Position numbers and translations under genes: made by a program | Assembly (NCBI GenBank): GCA_003577145.1 | Contig: QEUP01000003.1 | Span: 1-64,000, forward strand | DNA length: 64,000 nucleotides | Direction of reading: 5' to 3' | DNA from: Acidobacteriota bacterium | GTDB lineage: Bacteria; Actinomycetota; Acidimicrobiia; Acidimicrobiales; Microtrichaceae | Part shown: piece after piece, positions 6,128 through 61,895 of the stretch | Position numbering within the stretch: position 1 is the stretch's first letter | How the letters are laid out: every line of letters starts with the position of its first letter | Notes under the pieces: model-generated | Told to the model about the DNA's origin: nothing | The model's input: the letters and a program-made list of their open reading frames with translations, nothing else | Databases searched by the model: none

Positions 6128-6246
6128 TGACGACCCGTCGGCAACAGGTGGGGTGTCGTTAGTTGGATCCGATCGTTCACGGTGAGGACCCGAGCAATGT
6201 CAGGAGTGCTCACAAGAGGACGAACGCCGCAAGTGTCGTGGTCGGC

Positions 6247-7737: not shown

Positions 7738-8654
7738 TTGTACATGTCCCAGAATCCGGGCCCGACGGGCTCGGCGAAATCACCACGCGCCACGATGTAG
7801 CCGTCGTCGTCGAGGTCGATGGGCAACTGCGGCAGTGGCCGCGAGGCTGGGCCGAAGACGGGTCGGGCGTGTTCCATCAGGTCGAAGGTCGACTGGTGGC
7901 ACGGGCACAGCATGAGCTGGGACTGCTCCTCGAAGAGGCCGACGGGGCAACCGGCGTGGACACAGACCTTCGAGATGGCGATGATCTCGGTCTCGCTGCC
8001 GTCGACGGACAGCTTGATGCCCCAGTCCTCCTGCCCGGGCAGGGGCTCCCGCATGGGCTCCCGGAGATGTATCACCAGGGTCTGGGCCTGCTCGTCGCCG
8101 ACGGAGCCCTCGGGGAACGCGGTGATCACCCCGTTCACGTTCGGCTCGGTGTGATGGATCGGGTTGCCGGACTCGTCCACCAGGCGGAGGCCGTCAGGGT
8201 CGTCGGTGGCCTTGCGGTACGGGGTCGACTTCAACCCCGGAACCGGGTTGGGGCCGAGGGACGCGATCGGGAAGATCGAAGCGAGGCCGAGGAACCCGAG
8301 GCCGCCGCCGAGCAGCCAGGTCAGGAGCCGGCGCCTCTGGAAGGTCCCACCACCGGCGGCGAGGTCGGCCTCGAAGGCGGCCCGCTCCTCCGGCGTCGAC
8401 TGCAGCGGAGCGCGGGGTTCGGATTCGTAGCGGACGGGCATGAAGCGCTTGGACCACATCACCACGCCCGTCCCGATCCCGCCCAGCGCCAGGGCCAGGC
8501 AGAGGCCCTCGAGCTGGTTCTGGCCGCCGAGGGCATAGGTGACGGCCAGCCCGGCTCCGCCGGCGATTGCCACGATGAAAGCAGCCGCGACGGGCGCCTG
8601 GCTGCCACCGGGCGGTGCCGGCCCGGCCGGCTCGGTCGTGTCCACGTCGGTCAT
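7734..8654 (-). CDS. qcrA: Cytochrome bc1 complex Rieske iron-sulfur subunit
   Basis: A 306-residue protein. The C-terminal domain has both 2Fe-2S ligand boxes, VCVHAGCPVG and LCPCHQSTFD. The N-terminal half has three hydrophobic segments, the actinobacterial three-helix Rieske form. The start at 8654 (ATG) overlaps the qcrC stop in an ATGA; an upstream in-frame start would only add residues lying within qcrC. It passes electrons from quinol to the cytochrome c domains of QcrC. Confidence 0.95.
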   Translation of the reverse strand: MTDVDTTEPAGPAPPGGSQAPVAAAFIVAIAGGAGLAVTYALGGQNQLEGLCLALALGGIGTGVVMWSKRFMPVRYESEPRAPLQSTPEERAAFEADLAAGGGTFQRRRLLTWLLGGGLGFLGLASIFPIASLGPNPVPGLKSTPYRKATDDPDGLRLVDESGNPIHHTEPNVNGVITAFPEGSVGDEQAQTLVIHLREPMREPLPGQEDWGIKLSVDGSETEIIAISKVCVHAGCPVGLFEEQSQLMLCPCHQSTFDLMEHARPVFGPASRPLPQLPIDLDDDGYIVARGDFAEPVGPGFWDMYK

Positions 8655-9475
8655 ACCCCGACCTCCGTCTCCTCGGTCCTTCGCTGCCACAACTTGGCCG
8701 TCACCCAGCGGATGCCGATCAACAGCGCGGCCATCCCGATGATCCAGGCGGCGAAGCCCTCGGTGACCGGCCCGATCCGTCCCAGGCTCAAACCGCCCGG
8801 ATCGTCGGGGTCCTTCAGGTAGTCCACGTATCGCACGATCGAGTTCATCTCGTGGTCGGAGAAGACGTCCTCGCCGAACACGGGCATCTCGCCGGGGCCG
8901 AAGCGCATCGCCTCACCGATCTGCTGGCCGGGAACCTCCAACAGGCTCGGCGCGTGCTGTCCGAAGCTCAATGCGCCTCCGATGGCCGAGGCGTTGTGGC
9001 AGGGAGCGCAGTTGGCGCGGAATAGCTCACCGCCGAGGACGAGGTCGCCCGCAGCGGCCTCGACGACCGGCAGGGCGCGGTCCTCCGCCAGGTCGGCGAC
9101 GTACGCGACCAGCGCATCGGTCTCCTCGTCGGAGAACGCTTGAGGCTTGGAGGGGGCCTGCGGCACAGGCGAGGCGAGCGGCATGCGGCCGGTGCGAAGC
9201 ATGAAGTCGGCACCGGTGGCGCCGTCGGACAGCAGCGACGGGCCGAAGTCGCTGCCCTGCCCGCCGTCGCCGTGGCAGCTGACACAGGCGCGCTCGAACA
9301 GGCTCCGCCCTTGCGCAATCACCTCCGGGTCGTCGAGTTTGTCGCTCAGGGCCCGGACGTCCTCGGGCTGTTGGTCGCCCGCCGCCGTGCCGACCAGCAC
9401 CAGCACCACACCGGCCACGACGCTGGCGCTGAGAAGGCCCACTGCCCACGAGCGGCGGCTGCTCATGCGCACCAC
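8651..9475 (-). CDS. qcrC: Di-haem cytochrome c subunit of bc1 complex
   Basis: A 274-residue protein with an N-terminal membrane helix (about 8-30), two c-haem sites (CVSCHG and CAPCHN) and a C-terminal membrane helix (about 240-262). Actinobacteria that lack soluble cytochrome c use this tethered di-haem protein to carry electrons from Rieske to the CuA site of the oxidase. It lies one base from the ctaE stop and overlaps qcrA. Confidence 0.95.
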   Translation of the reverse strand: MVRMSSRRSWAVGLLSASVVAGVVLVLVGTAAGDQQPEDVRALSDKLDDPEVIAQGRSLFERACVSCHGDGGQGSDFGPSLLSDGATGADFMLRTGRMPLASPVPQAPSKPQAFSDEETDALVAYVADLAEDRALPVVEAAAGDLVLGGELFRANCAPCHNASAIGGALSFGQHAPSLLEVPGQQIGEAMRFGPGEMPVFGEDVFSDHEMNSIVRYVDYLKDPDDPGGLSLGRIGPVTEGFAAWIIGMAALLIGIRWVTAKLWQRRTEETEVGV

Positions 9476-9476
9476 C

Positions 9477-10052
9477 TCACTGGAGCACGTAGAGGACTAG
9501 GAAGACGGCGATCCACATGATGACCAGGAAGAACCAGTAGTACGACGCGACCTGGACGGTGTGGCCCACCGGCGCCCTGGTCCGGCGGCCCCCCACCATG
9601 AATGCGACGGCCACGAGCAGCACGATCCCAGCGACCACGTGGAGCACATGGATGCCGGTGAGGAGGTAGTACATCGAGCCGAACGGGTTGCTCGAGATGG
9701 AGAAGTCCAGACCCAGCCATTCGAGCAGTTGAGCAGCGACGAGGATCACACCGAGCACGGTCGTCAGCAGCAGCCAGAGGAGCATTGCCGTGCGATCGCC
9801 ACGCCGGGCGGTCTGCACGGCCACCCACATGCAGGCACCCGACACGATGAAGACCACCGTGAAGATCGACGCCCGGAACGAGTCGAGTTCGCTCCCGGCA
9901 GGCGGCCAGGGATCGTTGTTCGCCGAGAGCACGAAGAAGGCGGCGAAGAGCCCGGCGAAGAACATCATCTCCGATGCCAGCCAGACGGTGACGCCGATCG
10001 TCAGCGGCGAACCCTTGGTTCGCACCGGTTGGATGGCCACCCCCTCGGTCAT
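9477..10052 (-). CDS. ctaE: Cytochrome c oxidase subunit III
   Basis: A 191-residue membrane protein with five hydrophobic segments and the subunit III signature YYLLTGIHVLHVVAG near residue 120, plus a C-terminal SYYWFFLVIMWIAVF. The ATG at 10052 gives the expected N-terminus for the short five-helix form. A much longer reading frame upstream runs antisense to ctaG and is not coding. It heads the leftward operon with qcrCAB, as in mycobacteria and streptomycetes. Confidence 0.95.
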   Translation of the reverse strand: MTEGVAIQPVRTKGSPLTIGVTVWLASEMMFFAGLFAAFFVLSANNDPWPPAGSELDSFRASIFTVVFIVSGACMWVAVQTARRGDRTAMLLWLLLTTVLGVILVAAQLLEWLGLDFSISSNPFGSMYYLLTGIHVLHVVAGIVLLVAVAFMVGGRRTRAPVGHTVQVASYYWFFLVIMWIAVFLVLYVLQ

Positions 10053-10069
10053 CACGGCCTGTTTTAGCC

Positions 10070-10086
10070 GAGGGGGGTTACCCCTC
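10070..10086. promoter_or_regulatory. Inverted repeat between divergent ctaE and ctaG
   Basis: GAGGGG and CCCCTC flank a 5-base centre in the 66-base gap between the two divergent start codons. It could be an operator or simply GC-rich chance; no known regulator site is recognised. Confidence 0.25.
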
Positions 10087-10118
10087 CGTTGGATCCTCCA
10101 GGGGATAGCTTCAGGTTC

Positions 10119-11051
10119 ATGGAGCCACCGCCGTTCTCCGCAGCCAGCGTCGTGGCCGACCCGGTCCTCGACGTCACCGCTGTGCTGCTGATCATCGGGG
10201 GCGGTGCTGGGTATGTCTCGGGGGTCGTTCGTCTCCGGCGCAAGGGACGCCGGTGGAACCCGTGGCGGACCGCTTCGTTCTCGGTTGGCCTCGCCGTGGT
10301 GGCCTTGGGCACCGTATCGGGAATCGCCGCCTACGACACGGTGCTGTTCAGCGTCCACACCGTGCAACACGTGCTCCTCGGGATGATGGCGCCGATCCTC
10401 GTGGCACTGGGTGCACCGGTGACGCTGGCGTTGCAGGCCTCCAGCCGACCGACCCAGGGGAACATCCTGCATGCCCTCCACAGCCGCCCCGTCGCCTACC
10501 TCACCCACCCGGTCGTCGTCCTGGCCGTCTACGTCGGCATGCAGTTCGTGGTCTACTTCTCCCCGCTGTTCGAACTGGCTCTCGGCAACGACGTGGTCCA
10601 CGCCTGGCTCCACGTGGTGTACATCTCGGCCGGCCTGCTTTTCTGCTGGCTCGTGCTCGGCCTGGATCCGACGACCACCCGCCTGAGCCATCCCGCCCGC
10701 CTCGGCCTGCTGCTGCTGGCGATGCCGGTCCACGCCATGCTCGGTGTGGCCATCATGAGCCGCGCCTCGCTGCTCGGTGGTGCTTGGTACGCCACGGTCG
10801 AGCGCTCCTGGGGGGCCTCGCCGCTGTCGGACCAGCGAACCGGTGGCGGGATCCTCTGGGTGGCCGGCACCATGCTCGGGTTCCTCGCCGTGGGGATCGT
10901 GCTGACGCAGTGGCTGAGACACGAGGAGAGACAAGCGATCCGCCTGGACCGCGCGGAGCAACCGCCGGACGAGCCGGTCCGGTTGGGCCGAGCAGCGGAG
11001 CAGCCGTCGCGTCGCCCACCATCACCGCCTGAGGGGGTGGGCCGGCCGTAG
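10119..11051 (+). CDS. ctaG: CtaG-family cytochrome c oxidase assembly protein (first copy)
   Basis: A 310-residue multi-spanning membrane protein of the caa3-type CtaG family, with conserved membrane His residues (VHTVQHVLLG, DVVHAWLHVVY) thought to help copper delivery to the oxidase. The ATG at 10119 is used, with AGGGG about 15 bases upstream; a TTG at 10089 is also in frame. The C-terminus is charged and proline-rich. It precedes ctaC by 40 bases and is divergent from ctaE, so both halves of the respiratory chain share one control region. A second, different copy lies at 60966-61895. Confidence 0.88.
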   Translation: MEPPPFSAASVVADPVLDVTAVLLIIGGGAGYVSGVVRLRRKGRRWNPWRTASFSVGLAVVALGTVSGIAAYDTVLFSVHTVQHVLLGMMAPILVALGAPVTLALQASSRPTQGNILHALHSRPVAYLTHPVVVLAVYVGMQFVVYFSPLFELALGNDVVHAWLHVVYISAGLLFCWLVLGLDPTTTRLSHPARLGLLLLAMPVHAMLGVAIMSRASLLGGAWYATVERSWGASPLSDQRTGGGILWVAGTMLGFLAVGIVLTQWLRHEERQAIRLDRAEQPPDEPVRLGRAAEQPSRRPPSPPEGVGRP

Positions 11052-11091
11052 AATCCCGCGTCGTGGCGACCGGACCGGGGGGATCCAGATC

Positions 11092-11889
11092 GTGACGGGC
11101 GAGCCGCACGAGCGGCGCCCGCGGTGGCTTGTGCCGTCGCTGTCGGCCTTGACCGCGGTTGTGATCTCCGGCTGCGACCTCGGGCTCCCGTCGCCCATCA
11201 CCCGAGAGGGTGAGAACGTCACCCGGCTGTGGTCGGTGTTCACGATCCTCGCCCTGGCGATCGTGGCGCTCATCATCGGTCTCATCGTGGTGGTCGTGAT
11301 CCGCTACCGCCGGGGGCATCGCGACGACATCCCCAGCCAGCGGCAGTACAACTTCCCGCTCGAGATCACCTACACGGTCATCCCGCTGGTCATCGTCGGC
11401 GTGCTGTTCGGTCTCACCATCCCGGTCCAGGAGAACCTCGGATCCAAGGAAGGTGCCGCCGACGTGTACGTCGAGGTGGTCGGCTTCCAGTGGCAGTGGC
11501 AGTTCCGCTACTTCGAGGACGAGAGCTACGAAGGTGATCCCCGCATAGTCGTGTCGGGGTCACCCGAACAGGTCCCCGTGCTCGTCCTTCCGGTGGATGC
11601 CACGGTGCGGTTCAGGCTGGTCGCCCAGGACGTGATCCACTCGTTCTGGGTCCCCGAGTTCCTCGAGAAGCGCGACCTGATACCCGGTGCCGAAACCGAC
11701 GTCAGCCCGGGCATCGACAACGTGGTCGAGGTGGAGACGACCGAGACCGGCGAATGGACCGGTCGTTGCGCCGAGTACTGCGGCCTCCAGCACGCGTACA
11801 TGGACTTCGAGCTGCGCGTCGTCGACGAAGCGGAGTGGCAGTCCTGGAGCAGCGAGGCGGCTGACGCCACCGGGGAGGAGGGGACGTGA
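11092..11889 (+). CDS. ctaC: Cytochrome c oxidase subunit II
   Basis: A 265-residue lipoprotein (ISGC near residue 26) with two membrane helices (about 43-65 and 90-110) and a CuA cupredoxin domain. The CuA ligands are in CAEYCGLQHAYM, with the earlier His in VIHSFWVPEF. There is no cytochrome c fusion, so it should receive electrons from QcrC. GTG start; its end overlaps the ctaD start by four bases. Confidence 0.95.
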   Translation: MTGEPHERRPRWLVPSLSALTAVVISGCDLGLPSPITREGENVTRLWSVFTILALAIVALIIGLIVVVVIRYRRGHRDDIPSQRQYNFPLEITYTVIPLVIVGVLFGLTIPVQENLGSKEGAADVYVEVVGFQWQWQFRYFEDESYEGDPRIVVSGSPEQVPVLVLPVDATVRFRLVAQDVIHSFWVPEFLEKRDLIPGAETDVSPGIDNVVEVETTETGEWTGRCAEYCGLQHAYMDFELRVVDEAEWQSWSSEAADATGEEGT

Positions 11890-13592
11890 CCGCAACCCGG
11901 GAGGTGCCCCCGACAGGCGTGGAGGCGCAACCGCTCGTCGAGGAGCCCGCTGCACCCGAGAGGCGGCTGTCGGGGTTCCTGCGCTGGACCACCAGCACCG
12001 ACCACAAAGACGTCGGGCTGAGCTACATGATCACAGCTTTCGTCTTCTTCCTGGCGGCGGGCTGCCTGGCGCTGCTGATGCGAGCCGAGCTGGCCGACCC
12101 GGGACAGGAGATGGTCGGGCCGGGGACGTTCAACGAGCTGTTCACGATGCACGGTTCGATCATGCTGCTGGTGTTCCTCAGCCCCTTCGCCTTCGGCATA
12201 GCGAACTACTGCGTGCCGTTGATGATCGGCGCGCGGGACATGGCCTTCCCGAGGATCAACCTGCTGTCCTACTGGATCTACCTCGGCGGCGGCCTCTCGA
12301 TGGTGTTCGGCTTCGTGACCGCCGACGGAGCCGCCGACTTCGGCTGGTTCGCCTACACGCCGTTGTCGGATTCGGTGCGCTCCCCCGGGCTCGGCGCCGA
12401 GCTCTGGCTGGTGGGTGTGGCGCTGCTCGGCATCTCCGGCATCCTCTCGGCGCTCAACATCGTCGTCACCGTGTTCACCATGCGCACGCGCGGGATGACC
12501 ATGTTCCGCATGCCGATCCTGGTGTGGAACTTCGTGGTCGTGTCGGTGATGGTCCTGCTCGTGTTCCCCGTGCTCACCGCGGCGGCGGCGATGCTGTGGA
12601 CGGACCGCAACCTGGGGTCGGTCGTTTACGACGCCACCGCCGGTGGCCAGCCCATCATCTGGCAGCACCTGTTCTGGTTCTTCGGGCACCCGGAGGTCTA
12701 CATCCTCGTTCTCCCGTACTTCGGAGTTGTCACCGAGGTCTTCGCTGTCTTCTCGCGCCGACCGGTGTACGGGTACAAGGGCCTGGTGTTCGCGACGTGC
12801 TCGATAGGGGCCCTGTCGCTGGGCGTGTGGGCCCACCACATGTACGCGACCGGTGCTGTCCTGCTGCCGTTCTTCGGGGTGATGACGATGCTCATCGCGG
12901 TCCCCACCGGCGTGAAGATGTTCAACTGGCTGGGCACCATGTGGCTCGGCCGGGTCCGGTTCAGCACCGCGATGACCTTCGCCATCGGCTTTCTGGCCGT
13001 CTTCGTGATCGGCGGGGTAACCGGGGTGATACTGGCCTCACCCGCCTTGGACTTCCACCTCACCGACTCGTACTTCGTGGTCGCACACTTCCACTACGTG
13101 CTCTCGGGGGGTGCGGTCTTCGGCGTGTTCGCGGCGATCTACTACTGGTGGCCGAAGTGGTTCGGCAAGAAGCTGCACGAAGGCTGGGGTCATGTCCATT
13201 TCTGGTTGAACTTCATCGGGTTCAACCTCACGTTCTTCGTGCAGTTCATCCTCGGGCTCGAGGGCATGCCCCGCCGCGTCGCCGACTACACCGAGGCGAG
13301 CGGCTTCCGCCCGCTCAACGTCGTCTCGTCCATCGGTGCGGCAGTCCTGGGCGTATCGGTGCTGCCGTTCCTGTGGAACGCGTACCGGACTTGGCGCAGG
13401 GGGGAACCGGCCGGAGACGACCCCTGGGACGGGCAGACCCTCGAATGGGCCACCTCATCGCCACCGCCGATTGGGAACTTCCCCGAGGGGCTACCCCCGG
13501 TCCGCTCCGAGAGGCCGCTCTGGGACCTCAAGTACCCCGACCGCAAGGCGACCACCGGAGCCGACCCAGCGGCACGGAAGGCGACGCGATGA
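11886..13592 (+). CDS. ctaD: Cytochrome c oxidase subunit I (aa3-type)
   Basis: A 568-residue, 12-helix catalytic subunit. All haem-copper ligands are present: TMHGSIM (haem a), FGHPEVY (CuB His and cross-linked Tyr), WAHHMYATG (CuB His pair) and HFHYVLSGG (haem a3 and haem a). The C-terminal LEWATSSPPP signature is also there. It is the core of the main aa3 oxidase, overlapping ctaC before it and ctaF after it. Confidence 0.97.
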   Translation: MTATREVPPTGVEAQPLVEEPAAPERRLSGFLRWTTSTDHKDVGLSYMITAFVFFLAAGCLALLMRAELADPGQEMVGPGTFNELFTMHGSIMLLVFLSPFAFGIANYCVPLMIGARDMAFPRINLLSYWIYLGGGLSMVFGFVTADGAADFGWFAYTPLSDSVRSPGLGAELWLVGVALLGISGILSALNIVVTVFTMRTRGMTMFRMPILVWNFVVVSVMVLLVFPVLTAAAAMLWTDRNLGSVVYDATAGGQPIIWQHLFWFFGHPEVYILVLPYFGVVTEVFAVFSRRPVYGYKGLVFATCSIGALSLGVWAHHMYATGAVLLPFFGVMTMLIAVPTGVKMFNWLGTMWLGRVRFSTAMTFAIGFLAVFVIGGVTGVILASPALDFHLTDSYFVVAHFHYVLSGGAVFGVFAAIYYWWPKWFGKKLHEGWGHVHFWLNFIGFNLTFFVQFILGLEGMPRRVADYTEASGFRPLNVVSSIGAAVLGVSVLPFLWNAYRTWRRGEPAGDDPWDGQTLEWATSSPPPIGNFPEGLPPVRSERPLWDLKYPDRKATTGADPAARKATR

Positions 13593-14011
13593 GCGACCCA
13601 GCGGCACAAGGCGTCGAGGTCGCCGATCGTCGCTTCCCGACCGAAGCGAAGTACTTCATGGCGATCGGCGTCTTCTTCGCCCTCATCGCCACGATCTACC
13701 TGATCTTCTCCGACGGCGAGTGGATCGGCGTGTCCCTGCTCTATGCGGCGGTGATCGTCGCGTTGGTGTGCGCCTGGTTCATGACGACGCGCGTGCAGGG
13801 TGCGCAGGCAGACGTCGAGCTCTACGAGGAGGGTGAAGGTGACCAGACGGTCTACCTCCCCACGAGAAGTCACTGGCCGTTCCTGCTCGCGCTGGGAACC
13901 GTCGTCACTGCCAACGGCTTCTCAGTTGGCATGTGGCTGTTCGTGCCGGGTGTGATCGTGTTCCTCTACGCGCTGGCCGGTTTCATCAGAGAGGGGAGAG
14001 ACCGGGCTTGA
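13589..14011 (+). CDS. ctaF: Cytochrome c oxidase subunit IV (actinobacterial CtaF type)
   Basis: A 140-residue membrane protein with two helices near the start, an acidic loop (ELYEEGEGD) and two more helices from SHWPFLLALG on. This is the CtaF subunit found with actinobacterial aa3 oxidases. ATG overlaps the ctaD stop (ATGA) and its own stop overlaps the TTG start of the next gene. Confidence 0.9.
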   Translation: MSDPAAQGVEVADRRFPTEAKYFMAIGVFFALIATIYLIFSDGEWIGVSLLYAAVIVALVCAWFMTTRVQGAQADVELYEEGEGDQTVYLPTRSHWPFLLALGTVVTANGFSVGMWLFVPGVIVFLYALAGFIREGRDRA

Positions 14012-52595: not shown

Positions 52596-53492
52596 ATGCG
52601 TCAGACGATCCGCCCTCCGTTCGTCGAGCGGGTCAGCGCCTACGTGGCGCTGACCAAGCCGCGAATCATCGAGTTGCTGCTCGTGACCACCGTGCCGACG
52701 ATGATCGTGGCTGATCGCGGGTTGCCCTCCTTGTGGCTCATGGCGGCGACGGTCATAGGTGGGTCGCTGGCAGCGGGCGGGGCCAACGCCTTCAACATGT
52801 ACGTCGACCGTGACATCGACGCGCTGATGGAACGGACCAAGAGCCGGCCCCTGGTCACCGGAGTGATCGAGCCGCCCCAGGCCCTGGCCTTCGCGTCGAT
52901 CCTCGAGGTCGTCGCCTTCTTCTGGCTGTGGGGCTGGGTGAACTTCACGAGCGCCGCACTGGCTGTGGCAGCGTGCCTGTTCTACGTGTTCGTGTACACC
53001 CTCTGGCTGAAACGCACGTCGACCCACAACATCGTCATCGGTGGGGCAGCAGGGGCGGTACCGGTTCTGATCGGTTGGACGGCGGTGACGAACTCGCTGT
53101 CCTGGGTGGCGATACTGCTCTTCGCCATCATCTTCTGCTGGACGCCGCCGCACTTCTGGGCCCTGGCGATCAAGTACAAGGAGGATTACTGCCGGGCCGA
53201 GGTTCCGATGCTACCCAGCGTCGCCGACTTCAGGACCGCCGCCAACCGCATCGTCGGGTACACCATCCTCGTGTGGTCACTGACCATCGTGCTCACACCC
53301 GTGGCCGGCATGGGGTACCTCTACACCGGCTCGGCGGTTGTGCTGGGTGGTGTGTTCTCCTATCTGGCGCTCAGGCTGCGCCGTCAGGAGTCCGCGGTTG
53401 CGGCCATGCGTGTGTTCTCGTTCTCGATCACCTACATAGTGCTGCTTTTCGGTGCGATGGCGGCCGATCGGTTGCTGCAGTACGGGCTCTGA
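52596..53492 (+). CDS. ctaB: Protoheme IX farnesyltransferase (haem O synthase)
   Basis: A 298-residue UbiA-superfamily enzyme making haem O for the oxidases. NAFNMYVDRDIDALMERTKS is the prenyl-diphosphate motif (N-x3-D-x3-D type) and YKEDYCRAEVPMLP the second Asp/Glu-containing loop; about nine hydrophobic helices. It opens the second oxidase locus and presumably serves both oxidases. The haem A synthase gene ctaA is not in the window. Confidence 0.95.
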   Translation: MRQTIRPPFVERVSAYVALTKPRIIELLLVTTVPTMIVADRGLPSLWLMAATVIGGSLAAGGANAFNMYVDRDIDALMERTKSRPLVTGVIEPPQALAFASILEVVAFFWLWGWVNFTSAALAVAACLFYVFVYTLWLKRTSTHNIVIGGAAGAVPVLIGWTAVTNSLSWVAILLFAIIFCWTPPHFWALAIKYKEDYCRAEVPMLPSVADFRTAANRIVGYTILVWSLTIVLTPVAGMGYLYTGSAVVLGGVFSYLALRLRRQESAVAAMRVFSFSITYIVLLFGAMAADRLLQYGL

Positions 53493-53585: not shown

Positions 53586-55166
53586 ATGACCATCACCGAG
53601 ACTCGACCCGAATCCGGCGAGGTAGCGGGTAGGACCGCCGAGGAGACAGCGGGCCCCTCTGGCCTGTACCGCCTGCTCGGGACGAGCGACCACAAGACGC
53701 TCGGGCGCCTCTACATCGGGTTCTCGCTGATGCTGCTGGCGGGGGTGTTCACAATGGGCGCGCTATTGGCCGTCGATGCCGTAGACGTCGAGGGCAACCC
53801 GGTGTTCGGCGCCGCCATCGGACCGGCCTCGAGCAGCTACCTCCTCGGGACGGTCTTCTTCGCTCTGTGGCCGCTGTTGCTCGGGTTGGCCACCTACGTC
53901 GTGCCATTGCAGGTCGGATCCAGCACCATCGCCTACCCCCGAGCGGCCGCGCTGGCGCTGTGGACCTGGGTGGTGACGACGGGTGTCTACATCGCTTCAG
54001 TCGTCTTCGGCGGCGCCTACGGCGGTGCTGACGACGAGGCGGTCGCGCTCAGCAACGTGGCCTTCGGTGCGCTCGTCCTTGCGCTCCTCTTGGGCACGCT
54101 TTGTGTCATCGTCACCATCATCAGCCTCCGCCCGCGGGGAATGAAGCTCAATCGCGTTCCGCTCTTCAGCTTCTCGTTCCTCGCAGCCGGCTCGCTGGCA
54201 ATGCTCACCTGGCCCGTCGTGCTGGCCAACGTCGCACTCGCGCAGGTGGCGCAGTTCGGCCCCGATGTGGTCAGCGAGACCTACCTCAGCGGGATTCGCT
54301 GGGCGCTGGACGTGCCGGCCGTGTACATCGTGGCGCTACCGGCTCTGGGCATCATCGGCGAGGTCGTGCCGGTGTTCGCCAGGCGCCGGCAGGCGCACTA
54401 CGGCGTGATGCTCACAGGCCTCGGCCTCTTCGGCGCCTTCTCGTTCGGCGCATGGGCCCAGCCGGCTTTCAACATCGAGGTCCAAGAGCAGCTGCTGTTC
54501 GCCTTCATGGCGTTCCTGGTGGCACTGCCCCTGCTGCTGCTCCTCGGCGGCTGGTTCGGCGGGACGTTGCGCAGCGGAGAGCTCTGGTGGAGGTCGCCGC
54601 TCCTGCTGGCCCTGGCGGCGATCCTGCTGCTGTGCCTGGGTGTCCTCACCGGCGTTCTCCGTGTGCTGAATCCAGTCGACATGGCGCCCGAGCGCGCGTT
54701 CCTGGCCCAGAGCTCCTTCGTCGTGACAGCCACTGCCGCCGCCGCTGTGGCCGGACTCATCTACTGGGTTCCCAAGATCTACGGGGGGCTCTTCGCCGAG
54801 TGGCCGGCGCGAGTCGTCGTGGTCGTCTTCGTCTTGGGGAGCCTGCTGTACACGGTGCCGACGGGTATCTCGGCGCTGCTCGAGAACAACCTGTCGAATC
54901 CCACGGGACCGCTGCGCGCACTGGACGCGATCGTGATCGTGGGAGGCCTCGTCTTGACCGTCGCGGTGGCGGTGAGCGTGGGCGCCGTCATGAACGCCGC
55001 CAGGCGCAAGGATGGCTTCATCCCTGACAACCTCTGGAGGGCGTCCACCCTCGAGTGGGCGGTCGGCTGTCCCCCACCGCCGGGGAGCTTCGTGTGGGAC
55101 CTCGCACCAGTCACCTCTGAAGCCCCGCTGGTCGACTTCTACGAGGAAGAGGAGGCGAGCAGCTGA
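53586..55166 (+). CDS. Haem-copper oxidase subunit I homologue lacking all six metal-ligand histidines
   Basis: A 526-residue, 12-helix protein that aligns end to end with CoxI: GTSDHKTLGRLY at 32-43, YVVPLQVG at 104-111, VPAVYIVALPALGIIGEVVP at 243-262, YWVPKIYGG at 393-401 and a C-terminal TLEWAVGCPPPPGSF. Every haem and copper ligand is replaced. The haem-a His of the MH motif is Tyr85. HPEVY is VPAVY, with the Tyr kept (Tyr247). The CuB pair HH is Gln292-Pro293. HFHY is Ala374-Gln-Ser376-Ser. It therefore cannot bind haem a, haem a3 or CuB in the usual way. Canonical copies exist at 11886 and 57862. Perhaps a structural or regulatory subunit. Confidence 0.85.
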   Translation: MTITETRPESGEVAGRTAEETAGPSGLYRLLGTSDHKTLGRLYIGFSLMLLAGVFTMGALLAVDAVDVEGNPVFGAAIGPASSSYLLGTVFFALWPLLLGLATYVVPLQVGSSTIAYPRAAALALWTWVVTTGVYIASVVFGGAYGGADDEAVALSNVAFGALVLALLLGTLCVIVTIISLRPRGMKLNRVPLFSFSFLAAGSLAMLTWPVVLANVALAQVAQFGPDVVSETYLSGIRWALDVPAVYIVALPALGIIGEVVPVFARRRQAHYGVMLTGLGLFGAFSFGAWAQPAFNIEVQEQLLFAFMAFLVALPLLLLLGGWFGGTLRSGELWWRSPLLLALAAILLLCLGVLTGVLRVLNPVDMAPERAFLAQSSFVVTATAAAAVAGLIYWVPKIYGGLFAEWPARVVVVVFVLGSLLYTVPTGISALLENNLSNPTGPLRALDAIVIVGGLVLTVAVAVSVGAVMNAARRKDGFIPDNLWRASTLEWAVGCPPPPGSFVWDLAPVTSEAPLVDFYEEEEASS

Positions 55167-55747
55167 TGTCGATCATTCCCGTCGAATCGCCGGCGCCGGT
55201 GCTTCCCCGGCGACGCAAGCAGCTCTTCGCCACCGCCTATGCATCTGCGGGCGTGGTGATGTTCACAGTCGCCCTCCTGGGTTCCTATCTGGTCCAGCGA
55301 GCGGCCGACATCGAGACATGGCTGGCGGACAACTCGATACCGCTGCTCCAGCCCACCATGGGCTTGTTCACCCTGGTTCTGTCCGCGGCGGCCATGCAGT
55401 GGGCCGTTTACGCCATCTCCCGTGACATGCGCAGCCACGCGCTCCTCGCCACCGGGCTCACGGGCTTGCTGGGCATCGCGTACATCAACTCGATCGCTTT
55501 CCTCTACTCGCAGGTCGGGCTGGAGATGGCCAACCACTCCGAGGCACCCCTCTTCTACACCCTCACTGCTTCTCACCTGGTCTTCGTTGCCATAGGCGTC
55601 TTGTACCTGGCGGTGATGGCCTTTCGGGCCCTGGGAGGCCAGTTCTCTGCCCGTTACCCCGAAGGCATCTCTGCAGCTGCTGTCTACTGGTACGTCGTGG
55701 TGGGGCTGTACGGAGTCATCTGGTACGCCGTGTACGTGACGAAATAG
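55166..55747 (+). CDS. Cytochrome c oxidase subunit III-like membrane protein
   Basis: A 193-residue protein with five hydrophobic helices and a short basic-Pro N-terminus. APLFYTLTASHLVFVAIGVLYLAV aligns with the CoxIII signature (x-x-F-Y-x-L-T-G-x-H-x-x-H-V), with the second His replaced. The C-terminus AAAVYWYVVVGLYGVIWYAV matches the CoxIII ending. Its ATG follows the CoxI-like gene directly. I infer that it pairs with that protein. Confidence 0.75.
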   Translation: MSIIPVESPAPVLPRRRKQLFATAYASAGVVMFTVALLGSYLVQRAADIETWLADNSIPLLQPTMGLFTLVLSAAAMQWAVYAISRDMRSHALLATGLTGLLGIAYINSIAFLYSQVGLEMANHSEAPLFYTLTASHLVFVAIGVLYLAVMAFRALGGQFSARYPEGISAAAVYWYVVVGLYGVIWYAVYVTK

Positions 55748-55754
55748 GTCAGAC

Positions 55755-56597
55755 ATGTTCACCACCGGATCGAAGTTCTTCTACGGACTGGCCATACTCG
55801 GCTTCATCGCGGCGGGCTTCTATGCCGTCCTGACCGCATCTCACCCGGAGGGGATCTGGGACACGCTGACCGGTGAGGGCATCATCGACGTGCTCATCGG
55901 TCCTCTCACACTCGGTTACAAGGGCACTGTCGGCGATCAACTCGGCTTCTCGGTCCTGGTCGGCTTTGCCGCGACATGCGCCTCGCTTGGCTTCTTCCAC
56001 ACCGCGTTCCGCGATGCCGACCCGGAATCGGTCGCCGAGTTGGTTCACGCCGAGACGGTGCCCGTATCGGAACCGACGGGGTTGTCGCCCTGGCCGATCG
56101 TGGGAGCCTTCGGTGTGGCGGTGCTGCTGATCGGATGGGCTGCCAGCGAGGTCCTGTTCGTGGCCGGGATGGTGGCGTTGGTTCTCGTCGGAATCGAATG
56201 GGTCGTGCAGGCGTGGTCGGACCGGGCCACCGGAGATCCCGAGGTCAACCGCACCATCCGCAACCGGGTGATGGTCCCGATCGAGATACCCCTGGCGATC
56301 GTGATCGGCATCGGCGTCGTCGTGCTGTCAGTCTCCCGTGTCCTGCTCGCGGTCAGTGCCACCGCCGCGGCAATCATCGCGATCGTCGTTGCCACACTCG
56401 TGCTCATCGTTGCCTTCACCCTCGCTTCGTTCCCCAAGCTGAGGCAGGGAATCATCGCCTCGGCACTGCTCGTCGCGGGGGTCATCATCGTGGGCGCCGG
56501 TATCGGGAGCGCCCTTTCGGGTGAGCGCGATTTCGAGACGAACGACAGCGGGCAGGAGGAAGGTATGGCGGTCGTCGATCACGTGGCGGACTCATAG
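55755..56597 (+). CDS. CtaF-like membrane protein with an added C-terminal membrane domain
   Basis: A 280-residue protein. Residues 1-165 follow the order of CtaF at 13589: FFYGLAILGFIAAGFYAV, then a second helix, a charged loop, and a third part from SPWPIVGAFGVAVLLIG that lines up with SHWPFLLALG. About 75 further residues carry two or three more helices (IEIPLAIVIGIGVVVL onward), then an acidic tail. The likeness to CtaF is my reading by eye. It completes an I/III/IV-like trio without a subunit II. Confidence 0.6.
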   Translation: MFTTGSKFFYGLAILGFIAAGFYAVLTASHPEGIWDTLTGEGIIDVLIGPLTLGYKGTVGDQLGFSVLVGFAATCASLGFFHTAFRDADPESVAELVHAETVPVSEPTGLSPWPIVGAFGVAVLLIGWAASEVLFVAGMVALVLVGIEWVVQAWSDRATGDPEVNRTIRNRVMVPIEIPLAIVIGIGVVVLSVSRVLLAVSATAAAIIAIVVATLVLIVAFTLASFPKLRQGIIASALLVAGVIIVGAGIGSALSGERDFETNDSGQEEGMAVVDHVADS

Positions 56598-56628: not shown

Positions 56629-57849
56629 ATGACCCGGCAAGGCGAGATGAGCTATCCCCGACACAAGAGGAACCGATGGCTCGCGCTCGGCCTCGGTGGG
56701 CTGGTGCTGTTGCTGATCACAGCCTGCAGCAACAGCGGTCGTCCGCTCACGACGCTCGACCCGCAGGGGCCCGAATCCACCAAGATCCAGGACCTGGCCG
56801 GGCCGGTCTTCATCGTCGCCGGCGTCATCTTCATCTGTGTCGAGTTCGGGGTGCTGTTCATCGTGTCGCGATTCCGGCGTCGCAACACCGACGTCGACGG
56901 TGTCGACGAGCCCGAGCAGGTCCACGGCAACTTCCGGCTCGAGATCGTGTGGACGCTGATCCCCACCCTCATACTCTGCGGGATCGCGGTGTTCACCGCG
57001 CAGACGATCTTCGCTCTCGAGGAAGTGCAAGAGGACGCCCTACCTGTCGAGGTGATCGGCCAGCAGTGGTGGTGGGAGTTCCGCTACGACTTCGACGACG
57101 ACGGCGAGCCCGACATCATCAGCGCCAACCAACTGGTCATTCCCGCGGGACGCCAGATCGATCTCTCCATTCGATCGAACGACGTGATCCACAGCTTCTG
57201 GATTCCCGCCCTCAACGGCAAGAAGGACGCAGTACCGGGCCGGACCCACAGCCTGCTCATCCAGGCGAACGAGCCCGGCGTATACGAGGGCCAGTGCACC
57301 GAGTTCTGCGGCATCTCCCACGGCTACATGCAGATGCAGGTCCGTGCCGTCCCCGCCGCCGAGTTCGAGGCTTGGAAGCAGAACCAGCTGGCACCTCCCG
57401 TCGAGCCGACAAGCTCGGCCGAATTGGCCGGCTACGAGATCTTCAAAGCCCAGTGCGCCCGCTGCCATCAGGTCAACGGCATCGACACCGAGGCCGAGGG
57501 CTATTCGAACACGGGACCGACGCCCGATCCCGACTACGGGGCCGACCAGGTGGCGAACAACGCGCCCAACCTGACCCATCTGATGAGCCGGTCGACCTTT
57601 GCCGGGTCGATGTTCGACCTCTATGCCGACACCGGAGACGGTGTCTGTCCCGTAGTCTCGGATTCACCGACGGCCGAGGAGCAACATTCTGCGGGCTGCA
57701 CTCCCAACCTCGTCGATCTCGAGTCCTGGTTGCGTGACCCACCTGCCATGAAGCCCATGGCACCCGACGGGAACCGGGGCATGCCCAACCTGGGCCTCAG
57801 TGAAGAACAGGTCAGCGCGTTGATCGCCTACCTCACGATCCTGGAGTAG
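56629..57849 (+). CDS. Cytochrome c oxidase subunit II with fused cytochrome c (caa3-type)
   Basis: A 406-residue lipoprotein (ITAC, Cys33) with two helices (about 60-85 and 107-130), a CuA domain with CTEFCGISHGYM and VIHSFWIPALNG, and a C-terminal cytochrome c domain with CARCHQ near residue 274 and a late Met in the AMKPMAPDG region. caa3-type oxidases accept electrons through this haem c. It differs from ctaC, which lacks the fusion. ATG at 56629 or 56647. Confidence 0.93.
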   Translation: MTRQGEMSYPRHKRNRWLALGLGGLVLLLITACSNSGRPLTTLDPQGPESTKIQDLAGPVFIVAGVIFICVEFGVLFIVSRFRRRNTDVDGVDEPEQVHGNFRLEIVWTLIPTLILCGIAVFTAQTIFALEEVQEDALPVEVIGQQWWWEFRYDFDDDGEPDIISANQLVIPAGRQIDLSIRSNDVIHSFWIPALNGKKDAVPGRTHSLLIQANEPGVYEGQCTEFCGISHGYMQMQVRAVPAAEFEAWKQNQLAPPVEPTSSAELAGYEIFKAQCARCHQVNGIDTEAEGYSNTGPTPDPDYGADQVANNAPNLTHLMSRSTFAGSMFDLYADTGDGVCPVVSDSPTAEEQHSAGCTPNLVDLESWLRDPPAMKPMAPDGNRGMPNLGLSEEQVSALIAYLTILE

Positions 57850-57861
57850 CGGAGAACCGAA

Positions 57862-59874
57862 ATGGCTGTCACCGAGGAGCGACCTCTAGAGCTCGAGGCA
57901 AGCGAAGCGCCCGAAGTGGTCGAAGAACCGATGGGCGTGTTCACGCGTCCACGCGGTGGGCGCGGGTGGCGCTCGTGGGTCACCACCGTCGATCACAAGA
58001 AGATCGGTGTCATGTACGGCGCGGTGGCGCTGTTCTTCCTGGTCGTGGGCGGCGTGGAGGGCTTGCTCATACGGGTTCAACTCGCGACGCCCAGCTCCAG
58101 CCCCGACGAGCTGTTGATGAGCGCCGAGACCTACAACCAGATGTTCACCATGCATGCGGTGACGATGATCTTCCTGGTTGTCATGCCTCTGGCGGCCGCG
58201 TTCGCCAACTACCTGCTTCCCCTCCAGATCGGGGCGCGTGACGTGGCGTTCCCCAGGCTCAACGCCTTGAGCTTCTGGCTGTTCCTCTTCGGTGGCCTGT
58301 TCTTGAACTCGAGTTGGCTGCTCGGTGGTGGCCCCGACGGCGGATGGTTCATGTATGCGCCCAACAGCAGCGTCGTCTTCTCACCCAGCCACGGGGTCGA
58401 CTTCTTCGCCCTCGGCCTGATCATCGCCGGTGTCGCATCGCTCATCAGCGCCATCAACCTGGCCATCACAGTCATCAACATGCGTGCTCCGGGCATGACC
58501 CTGATGAAGATGCCGATGTTCACCTGGATGGTCCTGGTGACCCAGCTGCTGCTCATCTTCGCCCTTCCGGTGATCACCGTGGCGTTGTTCCTGCTGATGT
58601 TCGACCGGCTCTTCGGAGCCAACTTCTTCAATCCCTCGGCAGGCGGCGATGCACTGCTGTGGGAGCACCTGTTCTGGATCTTCGGCCATCCGGAGGTGTA
58701 CATCATCGTCCTCCCGGCCTTCGGGATCGTGTCGGAGGTTGTCCCGACCTTCTCCCGCAAACCCATCTTCGGCTACCCGTTCATGGTCTTCTCCGGTATC
58801 GCCATCGGTTTCATGGGCTGGGGGGTCTGGGCCCACCACATGTTCGCTTCCGGAATCGGCCCTGTGTCGGTGGCCGCTTTCTCGTTCGCGACGATGTTCA
58901 TCGCGGTTCCCACCGGCGTGAAGATCCTGAACTGGCTGGCGACCATGTACGGGGGTCGCTTGCGGTTCACGACACCGATGCTGTTCGCGATCGGCCTGGT
59001 GGCCATGTTCACCATCGGTGGCCTCTCAGGCGTCACACACTCGATCGCTCCTGCCGACACGCAGCAGACCGACACCTACTACATCGTCGGGCACTTCCAC
59101 TACGTGCTCTTCGGTGGCGGTGTCATGGGCCTGTTCGCCGGCCTGTACTTCTGGTGGCCCAAGGTGTTCGGTTACAAGCTCAGCGAGGCATGGGGCAAGT
59201 GGAACTTCTGGGTCATGTTGATCGGCTTCAACTTGACCTTCGGTCCGATGCACATCCTCGGGTTGCAGGGCATGTCGAGGCGGATCGCCACCTATTCCGA
59301 AGGCTACGGCTTCAACTTCTGGAACATGGTCGCGACCATCGGCTCGTTCATACTTGCCGTCGGTGTCTTGCTGTTCTTCATCAACATCTGGGTCAGCGCC
59401 CTGCGTCAGCGACGACACCCCGTTGATGTAGGTCCCGACCCTTGGGATGCGCGCAGCCTCGAGTGGATGATCCCCTCACCGCCACCCGAGCACAACTTCG
59501 ACGAGATCCCCACCGTGACCGAGCTGGACGAGTTCTGGTACCGCAAATACGGTCACGACGAGCAGGGCCGGCTCGTTCGCATCGCCAAGACAGAAGATGT
59601 CGTCCAGAAGGGTGACCGAGCGGGTGTGCACCTGCCGTCGCCGTCGTACTGGCCGATCGTGCTCGCCTTCGGGCTTCCCTGGATCGCCTACGGCCTGATC
59701 TTCAATCTGTGGTTCGCAGTGTTCGGCGCAGCGTGCGTCATCGCCGGCGCCTTCGGTTGGGCGATGGAGCCACCCGACGATCCCGAGGCGCACCGCCATC
59801 CCGCCGGGCCCGAAGCCGACGCTCCCGAAGGCAAGTCGGCGGACGTCGAAGGAGAGGGGGCCCCCGTTGGCTGA
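57862..59874 (+). CDS. Cytochrome c oxidase subunit I (second, catalytically complete copy)
   Basis: A 670-residue catalytic subunit. All ligands are present: FTMHAVTM with His98, FGHPEVY, WAHHMFASG and GHFHYVLFGG. After the usual C-terminal SLEWMIPSPPPEHNF it carries about 110 more residues with two extra helices and an acidic tail, longer than the other copy. It belongs to the caa3-type operon and follows subunit II by 12 bases. Confidence 0.97.
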   Translation: MAVTEERPLELEASEAPEVVEEPMGVFTRPRGGRGWRSWVTTVDHKKIGVMYGAVALFFLVVGGVEGLLIRVQLATPSSSPDELLMSAETYNQMFTMHAVTMIFLVVMPLAAAFANYLLPLQIGARDVAFPRLNALSFWLFLFGGLFLNSSWLLGGGPDGGWFMYAPNSSVVFSPSHGVDFFALGLIIAGVASLISAINLAITVINMRAPGMTLMKMPMFTWMVLVTQLLLIFALPVITVALFLLMFDRLFGANFFNPSAGGDALLWEHLFWIFGHPEVYIIVLPAFGIVSEVVPTFSRKPIFGYPFMVFSGIAIGFMGWGVWAHHMFASGIGPVSVAAFSFATMFIAVPTGVKILNWLATMYGGRLRFTTPMLFAIGLVAMFTIGGLSGVTHSIAPADTQQTDTYYIVGHFHYVLFGGGVMGLFAGLYFWWPKVFGYKLSEAWGKWNFWVMLIGFNLTFGPMHILGLQGMSRRIATYSEGYGFNFWNMVATIGSFILAVGVLLFFINIWVSALRQRRHPVDVGPDPWDARSLEWMIPSPPPEHNFDEIPTVTELDEFWYRKYGHDEQGRLVRIAKTEDVVQKGDRAGVHLPSPSYWPIVLAFGLPWIAYGLIFNLWFAVFGAACVIAGAFGWAMEPPDDPEAHRHPAGPEADAPEGKSADVEGEGAPVG

Positions 59875-60511
59875 AGCCGCGGCCATGCCGAGTGTCACCG
59901 TGACGGCGTCTGCTCGAGACGCGGAGCACCGCACCGCGACGGGCCTGTCGAACGAGAAGCTGGCGATGTGGGTGTTCCTCGCCTCGGAGTGCCTGCTGTT
60001 CGGCGGACTCATCTCCACCTACCTGCTCTACAAGAACAGGCCGGGTGAGGTCGTGGACCTGGCGGGTAACCCCGTGAAGGTCTCCGAGTTGTTCGACATC
60101 CCGTTCACCTCGGTCAGCTCGTTCGTGCTGCTCATGAGCTCGATGACCATGGTGCTGGCCCTGGCTGCCATCCGGCGGGGTGATCACAGCCGCTTCCGCC
60201 TCTGGATCGTGTCGACGGCGGCCTTCGGGATGCTCTTCATCAGTGGCCAGGTCTACGAGTTCACCGCCTTTGTTCGGGAGGGCCTCGGCTTCACCTCCAA
60301 CGTCTCCAGCTCAGCCTTCTACACGCTCACCGGCTTCCACGGTGCTCACGTGACTATCGGCATCATCATGCTGTTCTCGCTTCTCGCCCTTTCCCTCAGG
60401 GGAGTCCTACCCAGCCGCAAGTCCGAGACCGTCGAGATAGTCGGCCTCTACTGGCACTTCGTCGACATCGTGTGGATTGTCATCTTCACGGTGGTCTACC
60501 TGATCCCTTGA
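59867..60511 (+). CDS. Cytochrome c oxidase subunit III (second copy)
   Basis: A 214-residue five-helix subunit III: KLAMWVFLASECLLFGGLI, AFYTLTGFHGAHVTIGI with both conserved His, and VGLYWHFVDIVWIVIF at the end. The TTG at 59867 overlaps the subunit I stop and has a strong AAGGAGAGG seven bases upstream; an ATG at 59885 is an alternative. Confidence 0.95.
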   Translation: MAEAAAMPSVTVTASARDAEHRTATGLSNEKLAMWVFLASECLLFGGLISTYLLYKNRPGEVVDLAGNPVKVSELFDIPFTSVSSFVLLMSSMTMVLALAAIRRGDHSRFRLWIVSTAAFGMLFISGQVYEFTAFVREGLGFTSNVSSSAFYTLTGFHGAHVTIGIIMLFSLLALSLRGVLPSRKSETVEIVGLYWHFVDIVWIVIFTVVYLIP

Positions 60512-60522
60512 GGTTCGACCCG

Positions 60523-60969
60523 ATGAGCACTGACACGCTTGACCCCCGATCCGAGCAGGCAGAAGAAGAGCGCGCCGCCCACGAGCACCCACCGGACAGC
60601 ACCTACATCAAGGTGGCGATCGTCCTGGCCGTCCTCACGGCCATCGAGGTGTCGACCTACTTCGTGGAGGACGAGGTCTTCCAGAACAACAGCACTGCCA
60701 TCGTCATAACCCTGGCGATCATGATGGTCTTGAAGTTCGCGATCGTCGCTTTGTTCTTCATGCACCTGAAGTTCGACAGCAAGGTCTTCGGCAGAACCTT
60801 CGTCTTCGGGATAATCCTGGCCGGAGCCGTGTACATAGCCACCCTCACGGCCTTCGTGTTCTGGGACAACTCGGGTCTCGACAGCTATGACGATCCGCCC
60901 GACACCGATGTGCGGGAATCGCTCGAGCGGCAGGACGACCAACAGGACGGGTCGACGTCGCAGGGATGA
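60523..60969 (+). CDS. Cytochrome c oxidase subunit IV (caa3-type)
   Basis: A 148-residue protein with three helices and FFMHLKFDSKVFG, the signature of prokaryotic subunit IV. It is unrelated to CtaF, consistent with a different oxidase type. Its stop overlaps the ctaG copy (ATGA). Confidence 0.88.
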   Translation: MSTDTLDPRSEQAEEERAAHEHPPDSTYIKVAIVLAVLTAIEVSTYFVEDEVFQNNSTAIVITLAIMMVLKFAIVALFFMHLKFDSKVFGRTFVFGIILAGAVYIATLTAFVFWDNSGLDSYDDPPDTDVRESLERQDDQQDGSTSQG

Positions 60970-61895
60970 GCATGCTCGCAGCGTACGAGTTCTGGCGTTT
61001 CCAGCCTCATGTGGAGATCTGGGTGCTGGTGGCGGGGCTCGTAGCACTCGGCTTCTATGTCACCCGGGTGATCCAACCGAAGGCGGTTGCTGTTGGCGAA
61101 CCGCCGGTCAGCCGCGCACAGAAGGCGTGGTTCGCTCTCGGGGTGGCGACGTTGTGGATCGCGACCGACTGGCCGATGCACGACATCGCCGAGGAGTACC
61201 TGTACGCGGTGCACATGGTGCAGCACCTCCTTCTGACCTTCATCATCGCCCCGATGTTCCTGATGGCCTGCCCGACGTGGCTGGCTCGTCTGATCCTCGG
61301 CGAAGGTCGCGTGAGAAGGGTCATCTACTGGCTCGCCAGGCCCATCGTTGCCGCCATCATCTTCAATGCCGTTGCCGCCTTCACTCACTGGGCCCCGGTG
61401 GTGAACCTCTCTGCCGACAACGGCTTCTTCCATTACGGCGTCCATACGACAATGGTCTTCAGTGCTCTGTTGATGTGGATGCCGGTGGTCGGGCCTGTTC
61501 CGGAACTGCGCATCTCACTGCCGGCTCAGATGGTCTACCTCTTCTTCATGTCGGTGATCCCGACGGTGCCGGCGGCCTGGCTCACCTTTGCCGAGGGCAC
61601 GTTGTACAACGCCTACGACGTTCCTCAGCGCCTCTGGGGAGTCTCGGTGGCCGAGGACCAACAAGCGGCCGGCCTCATCATGAAGATCGGCGGGGGTCTA
61701 TACCTGTGGGCCATCATCACGGCGCTGTTCTTCCGCTGGAGCTCGGGGCAGGACAGGCGCAGGTACCGCGGCAAGCTGGTCACAGCCGCGGGGTCGGTGG
61801 TCGACACAGAGGACGACCTGCTCACCTATGACGAGGTCGCGCGGGAGTTCGACCGCCTGGGACCGGCACCGGAGGAGGACCGGAGTCCCAACTGA
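60966..61895 (+). CDS. CtaG-family oxidase assembly protein (second copy)
   Basis: A 309-residue seven-helix CtaG protein. Conserved membrane His motifs include MHDIAEEYLYAVHMVQHLLL and FFHYGVHTTMVFSA. It is clearly diverged from the copy at 10119, with different lengths of loops. It ends the second oxidase operon, so each oxidase has its own assembly factor. Confidence 0.9.
   Translation: MSMLAAYEFWRFQPHVEIWVLVAGLVALGFYVTRVIQPKAVAVGEPPVSRAQKAWFALGVATLWIATDWPMHDIAEEYLYAVHMVQHLLLTFIIAPMFLMACPTWLARLILGEGRVRRVIYWLARPIVAAIIFNAVAAFTHWAPVVNLSADNGFFHYGVHTTMVFSALLMWMPVVGPVPELRISLPAQMVYLFFMSVIPTVPAAWLTFAEGTLYNAYDVPQRLWGVSVAEDQQAAGLIMKIGGGLYLWAIITALFFRWSSGQDRRRYRGKLVTAAGSVVDTEDDLLTYDEVAREFDRLGPAPEEDRSPN

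Follow-up and report, generated by a model that had tools for sequence, protein, structure and literature searches.

In the window analysed here, i.e. the whole stretch of 64,000 nucleotides of contig QEUP01000003.1, a caa3-type oxidase operon is preceded by the gene of a CtaD-like subunit I, CoxI', which is a pseudo-oxidase: the architecture of subunit I is kept while every haem and copper ligand is gone. Proteins encoded in the same slot by sister lineages of the same Acidimicrobiia order display a graded loss of these ligands. Together with its two accompanying proteins, CoxI' would, on balance and with modest confidence, serve the caa3 oxidase as a scaffold or docking module devoid of cofactors, a mechanism that we infer from the data presented below.

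The CoxI' protein and its operon

Both the fold of a haem-copper oxidase subunit I and the Pfam COX1 profile are found in CoxI', whose ORF starts with ATG and encodes 526 amino acids in an unbroken frame; a frameshift artefact as the source of the protein was considered and rejected. The COX1 match (3.8e-37) covers residues 39-432, the closest solved relatives are the mycobacterial CtaD proteins (6adq), to which CoxI' aligns end to end (E 6e-44), and the identity to the canonical CoxI of the neighbouring operon is 28%. An AF2 model built from 31 homologues (pLDDT 89, pTM 0.92) has the twelve-helix CoxI fold and superposes on bo3, aa3 and caa3 oxidases over about 450-500 residues, with Z of about 34-41.

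The ligand sites were read, in Rhodobacter numbering, against the two canonical proteins of the window, CoxI (57862-59874) and CtaD (11886-13592). The two haem a histidines, the haem a3 histidine and the three CuB histidines required of a haem-copper oxidase enzyme are all absent from CoxI': H102 and H421 (haem a) correspond to Tyr85 and Ser377, H419 (haem a3) to Gln375, H284 to Val243 and H333/H334 to Gln292/Pro293 (CuB). Besides, the D- and K-channel positions D132, E286 and K362 are occupied by Thr, Ala and Leu, and R481/R482 are missing too, so that channel and propionate residues are lost. The whole protein contains only two histidines, neither at a metal site: His36 falls within the DHK motif, and His271 lies in or beside the loop joining helices 6 and 7. 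The preliminary description of a full-length CoxI paralogue with all six haem/copper histidines replaced is thereby confirmed by the Pfam match, the AF2 model and the ligand-site alignment, as is the retention of the cross-link Tyr of HPEVY (Tyr247). Among the residues it had placed at the ligand positions, Tyr85, Val243 and Gln292-Pro293 stand, whereas Ala374 and Ser376 were one residue off in our alignment, which has Gln375 and Ser377 there, with no histidine in either case. The structure comparison named there as a way to overturn this reading did not restore any ligand histidine, and the sequence holds no suitable one. A nitric oxide reductase (NOR) identity was also rejected, since the haem ligands are absent and the profile and PDB matches are all oxidases and none a NOR.

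The gene belongs to a cluster with the conserved order ctaB-CoxI'-CoxIII'-[CtaF-like]-CoxII-CoxI-CoxIII-CoxIV-CtaG (Table 1), in which the CoxIII' start shares one base with the CoxI' stop, as read from the sequence. Pfam COX3 is matched by 30/30 aligned CoxIII' homologues, and CoxIII' contains no Cys. The next protein gives no good Pfam match when taken alone; however, its family profile aligns with CtaF over the CtaF length (hhalign prob 96.4, E 1.4e-9), the top PDB profile match is mycobacterial CtaF (E about 0.002, i.e. 0.0021), and Pfam Cyt_c_ox_IV is found in 7/30 family members. When its model was compared by VIA-align, CtaF chains ranked near the top, with Z of only 7.4-8.1 and hence weak support for the fold, and Foldseek with this model returned nothing significant. 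Since the second and third genes are CoxIII-like and CtaF-like, the three proteins appear, judging from sequence, to be a whole CtaD-E-F-like module without its own subunit II.

Table 1. Positions in the window of the conserved cluster and of the second oxidase cluster.
Feature	Position	Strand	Basis or remark
ctaB (haem O synthase), first in conserved cluster	52596-53492	+	NCBIfam 1.3e-116, synteny
CoxI' (CtaD-like pseudo-oxidase subunit I)	53586-55166	+	no haem/copper ligands
CoxIII' (CtaE-like, 193 aa)	55166-55747	+	Pfam COX3 2.3e-10
CtaF-like membrane protein (280 aa)	55755-56597	+	profile match to CtaF
CoxII of partner caa3-type oxidase, with CuA domain and a cytochrome c at its C-terminus	56629-57849	+	start codon chosen by analyst
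Canonical CoxI of partner oxidase	57862-59874	+	all ligands present
Canonical CoxIII of partner oxidase	59885-60511	+	
CoxIV of partner oxidase	60517-60969	+	
CtaG (caa3 assembly factor), final gene of conserved cluster	60966-61895	+	Pfam Caa3_CtaG 1.2e-41
Cytochrome b, bc family, second cluster	6847-7368	-	
Dihaem-like cytochrome c ORF, second cluster	8651-9475	-	by eye
CoxIII, second cluster	9486-10007	-	
CoxII, second cluster	11092-11889		
Canonical CtaD, second cluster	11886-13592		
CtaF, second cluster	13589-14011		

Two further observations concern the oxidases of this genome. At its C-terminus, the partner CoxI is extended by a segment (residues 581-636) matching Cyt_c_ox_IV (PF12270), so that a portion of a CtaF-like domain is joined to subunit I. 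The second oxidase cluster, at 6247-14011, looks like a bcc-aa3 set, and elsewhere in the genome (G000:C53:133863-134246, +) the N-terminal part of cytochrome b is matched a second time, by a sequence containing one in-frame TAG.

Distribution, ligand loss and origin

As a search of genome contigs with CoxI' as a single protein gave no matches, the partner CoxI was used as query instead, and 80 named loci were gathered, besides thirty syntenic homologues fetched from other genomes of the same order; the 31-row CoxI' alignment was too divergent to derive patterns. Full-length CoxI' ORFs occur in 30/30 fetched family representatives, and CoxI' is found at 67 of the 80 named loci, nearly always between ctaB and coxII and with ctaG closing the cluster, whereas 12 of the other 13 loci are interrupted by contig ends. 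The remaining one (L136, a Microthrixaceae MAG) is the only named locus missing CoxI' alone with the module otherwise present: at 5899-7513, ctaB is directly followed by CoxIII' and CoxI' is cleanly missing, which may reflect a natural deletion, CoxI' then being dispensable, or an assembly collapse. Where the record titles name a lineage, this is mostly Acidimicrobiia or Acidimicrobiales, Microthrix and Ilumatobacter included. Five MAG contigs (L110, L138, L127, L148, L180) are titled Bifidobacterium breve, Acidobacteria or Ferrithrix thermotolerans; their oxidase operon is the same as in Acidimicrobiia, and they are probably mislabelled or misbinned.

Among 296 genomes of the class searched with profile A2, 55 members were detected in the order, and the sole match from beyond the order (G103) is a canonical CtaD in which no ligand is missing. 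The partner CoxI is present in 62 sampled genomes of the order, and module genes in 62/62 of these, close to the partner except in G225, where they are several kb apart. Seven partner carriers fall below the profile threshold: two are contig-cut, two divergent and three have haem ligands. No module profile match was obtained in the 34 sampled genomes of the order without the partner (our own count of the listing). The homologues that the preliminary description had proposed to look for were thus found in Acidimicrobiia, within one order, whereas no CoxI' member was detected in the other classes of the Actinomycetota sample; nothing closely related to the window CoxI' itself was present in the sets searched. 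Of 98 CoxI' proteins, 66 have no histidine at the ligand sites, 21 one, 8 two and 3 three, and such a recurrent loss at the same syntenic position exceeds chance.

CoxI' evolves under constraint, albeit a weaker one than its partner. In 37 close pairs, the window not being among them, its dN/dS ranges from 0.05 to 0.31, about twice that of the partner CoxI in the same pairs (about 0.03-0.15), and orthologues are 26-39% identical to the window protein compared to about 63-74% for the partner. For the CoxIII' and CtaF-like genes, too, most values lie far below 1; a few of those for CoxIII' are inflated because the open frames used extend past the gene start. Given plentiful homologues and a dN/dS away from 1, CoxI' is therefore selected for a role that is not oxidase catalysis, which bears out the preliminary view that random decay does not explain the protein and supports the non-catalytic role proposed there. 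With sidedness assigned from the known topology of subunit I, the haemless clade is more conserved on the cytoplasmic than on the periplasmic side (loops 0.53 vs 0.41; transmembrane halves 0.55 vs 0.48), whereas canonical CtaD has no bias (0.75 vs 0.74), thereby suggesting that the electron-entry side is relaxed while another surface is still constrained. Invariant residues are mostly G, P and W, to which the cytoplasmic loops add R and Q; no conserved charged residue is found in the membrane core, and the former ligand sites differ between species with no conserved replacement ligand in the family.

The slot proteins, i.e. those encoded at the CoxI' position, form a single clade in an 84-row tree and in a smaller one that agrees with it, both being quick searches with SH-aLRT support only (SH-aLRT 100). 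In the larger tree, this clade is nearer to actinobacterial CtaD than to the adjacent partner CoxI. Grouping slot proteins and partner CoxI as one clade gives an AU p of 0.14 and was thus not rejected, so that an origin from the CtaD line rather than from the partner line is favoured by the tree without being compelled. Two slot lineages fall outside the haemless clade. The CuB triad is present in 0/65 slot proteins of the tree, which corresponds to one change; the haem a pair is kept in 25/65 (four changes) and the haem a3 histidine in 12/65, the alignment of H419 and H421 being less certain in the most divergent members. The f20 proteins (f-codes of families are group codes, not names) keep H102 and H421 but not H419, with Tyr or Thr, Ser, and Glu or Gln at the CuB positions, whereas f8, f10, f121, f123, f147 and relatives retain H102 and H421, often H419, and have mostly Arg, Ala and Gly at CuB. 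Within the haemless clade, L039, L124 and L147 also appear to retain H102 and H421. Because sister lineages retain haem ligands, the loss common to every sampled clade member is that of the CuB triad and not that of the haem ligands, and living sister lineages display intermediate steps of chemistry loss in the same slot. At six loci, the slot CoxI-like proteins have haem ligands and no CuB histidine (L184 9738-11405, -; L185 5402-7048, +; L195 3703-5427, -; L244, L245 and L248), which makes them candidate CuB-less haem proteins.

A further redox domain follows a similar pattern. In the two lineages outside the haemless clade, the CtaF-like protein ends in a cupredoxin in 17 of the 18 members with the haem a pair and complete genes, the exception being L240, and this tail carries a type-1 copper motif, e.g. 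CDFHPNM, whereas the CtaF-like protein of the window has no such C-terminal domain. Examples of the fusion are the genes at L195 2054-3034 (-) and L185 7629-8633 (+), with motifs CDVHPTQM and CDFHPNM. In a separate scan of 102 CtaF-like proteins, the cupredoxin was found only in G225, an f20 genome. That the cupredoxin and the haem a pair are perfectly coupled was nevertheless rejected: in L231 the copper motif occurs although haem ligands are missing, and L240 lacks the cupredoxin while keeping the pair. Other lineages of the class have membrane cupredoxins next to caa3 operons (L196, L197, L198), and these align with the C-terminal half of the profile of the CtaF-like family, so that a fusion of CtaF with such a membrane cupredoxin may have given rise to the fused gene. 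In f2 genomes (L052, L056, L060, L062, L072, L186, L187) and at L167, L175, L176 and L179-L181, the CtaF-like protein is lengthened at its C-terminus by roughly 110-130 residues; this extension, devoid of copper ligands, is possibly a degenerate cupredoxin.

Possible roles of the module

With neither ligand histidines nor D/K-channel residues, CoxI' is excluded from oxidase chemistry of a known kind, and the scaffold reading introduced above could have the following history. In the ancestor of the Acidimicrobiia order, or of most of it, a CtaD-E-F-like oxidase core would have been put ahead of a caa3-type operon. Its chemistry would then have been stripped, CuB first, as in all sampled members, and afterwards the sites for haem a3 and haem a as well as the cupredoxin fusion. 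The three module proteins would still assemble as a I-III-like subcomplex, which would be a permanent structural part of the adjacent caa3 oxidase, as scaffold or adaptor. In the Mycobacterium smegmatis supercomplex, CtaE and CtaF make the main contacts between complexes III and IV (PMC8361435); this makes it plausible that the module, without taking part in electron transfer itself, attaches the caa3 oxidase to cytochrome bcc or to some other partner. Such a scaffold is supported by the retention of CoxIII' and the CtaF-like protein, which are subunits packing against subunit I, by the kept nine-gene order and the presence of the module wherever the sample has the caa3 oxidase, by the low dN/dS and full-length frames, by the conservation biased towards the cytoplasmic face, and by the bc-family cytochrome b beside the second, canonical oxidase of the genome. 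It is weakened by L136, where CoxI' may be dispensable, and a permanent, tightly packed subunit is weakened by the much faster divergence of CoxI' relative to its partner.

A bolder form of this reading, a two-core respiratory complex in which the working caa3 oxidase is permanently paired with a second oxidase core, is conceivable but rather doubtful: in sister lineages, this second core would be a new redox protein with haem a, sometimes haem a3, and no CuB, to or from which the fused type-1 copper cupredoxin would pass electrons, while in the window lineage the emptied core would be a cofactor-less docking body tying the caa3 oxidase to its electron donor. Several other explanations have to be weighed against the scaffold. 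The position between ctaB, the haem O synthase gene, and the oxidase genes, with ctaG at the end, would also suit an assembly factor that binds caa3 subunits or their cofactors only while the enzyme is being built and is missing from its mature form, and fast divergence fits a transient partner. This is nevertheless unlikely, given that a whole I-III-F subunit set is kept rather than one chaperone domain, that the relatives resemble a redox complex with cupredoxin and that the cluster already has CtaG.

A new membrane activity, the emptied core acting as a channel, a transporter or a lipid- or quinone-binding protein near the oxidase, finds some ground in the retained twelve-helix fold with replaced haem and CuB sites and in the conserved cytoplasmic-side residues; a membrane core with no conserved charged residue and former ligand sites that vary between species make it quite improbable. 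As sister lineages retain haem ligands, the ancestral slot protein probably bound haem, and together with the three haemless-clade members that appear to keep H102 and H421 this could hint at a hidden cofactor, held by non-histidine ligands or by histidines supplied by a partner. However, the two histidines of the window CoxI' lie away from metal sites, the family has no conserved replacement ligand, Cys is absent from CoxIII' and the copper domain from the CtaF-like protein, so that this explanation has very little probability. Finally, the low orthologue identity and the loss of functional residues might be expected of a decaying duplicate heading for loss, yet the dN/dS values, the intact frames and a cluster that persists in many families of the order leave it hardly credible for CoxI', and decay at the family level is ruled out by dN/dS and synteny.

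Compared to known systems, the module is closest to CtaD/CtaE/CtaF of the actinobacterial aa3 oxidase (bcc-aa3, 6adq), with which it has in common the fold, the full-length alignment, the CoxIII and CtaF-like partners, the C-terminal LEW-PPP motif of subunit I and a neighbouring position in the tree. It differs from them in having no haem, no CuB, no proton-channel residues and no subunit II of its own, and in a CtaF-like protein that is longer than aa3 CtaF and cupredoxin-fused in sister lineages. The caa3-type oxidase (2yev and the window partner) shares the operon and the subunit I fold with CoxI', but the partner has every ligand and the slot proteins form their separate, fully supported clade. 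NORs and other divergent haem-copper relatives belong to the same superfamily and have altered active sites, like CoxI'; to our knowledge, though, these and known haem-copper enzymes generally retain haem ligands and a non-haem metal site, whereas the slot clade has no CuB triad and the window CoxI' no haem ligands either. ActC and ActF of alternative complex III are cofactor-free membrane subunits in a redox complex, as CoxI' would be; they have no known sequence kinship with it, and CoxI' derives from a catalytic core. No earlier description of such a protein was found in the open-licence literature. A clade spread across one order, in which the oxidase fold and partner subunits are kept and the chemistry removed, and whose living relatives are graded, with CuB absent in all, haem sites variable and the cupredoxin lost in nearly the same lineages, offers a natural test of the non-catalytic roles of an oxidase core. 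In these bacteria, annotation based on the CoxI profile only overcounts terminal oxidases.
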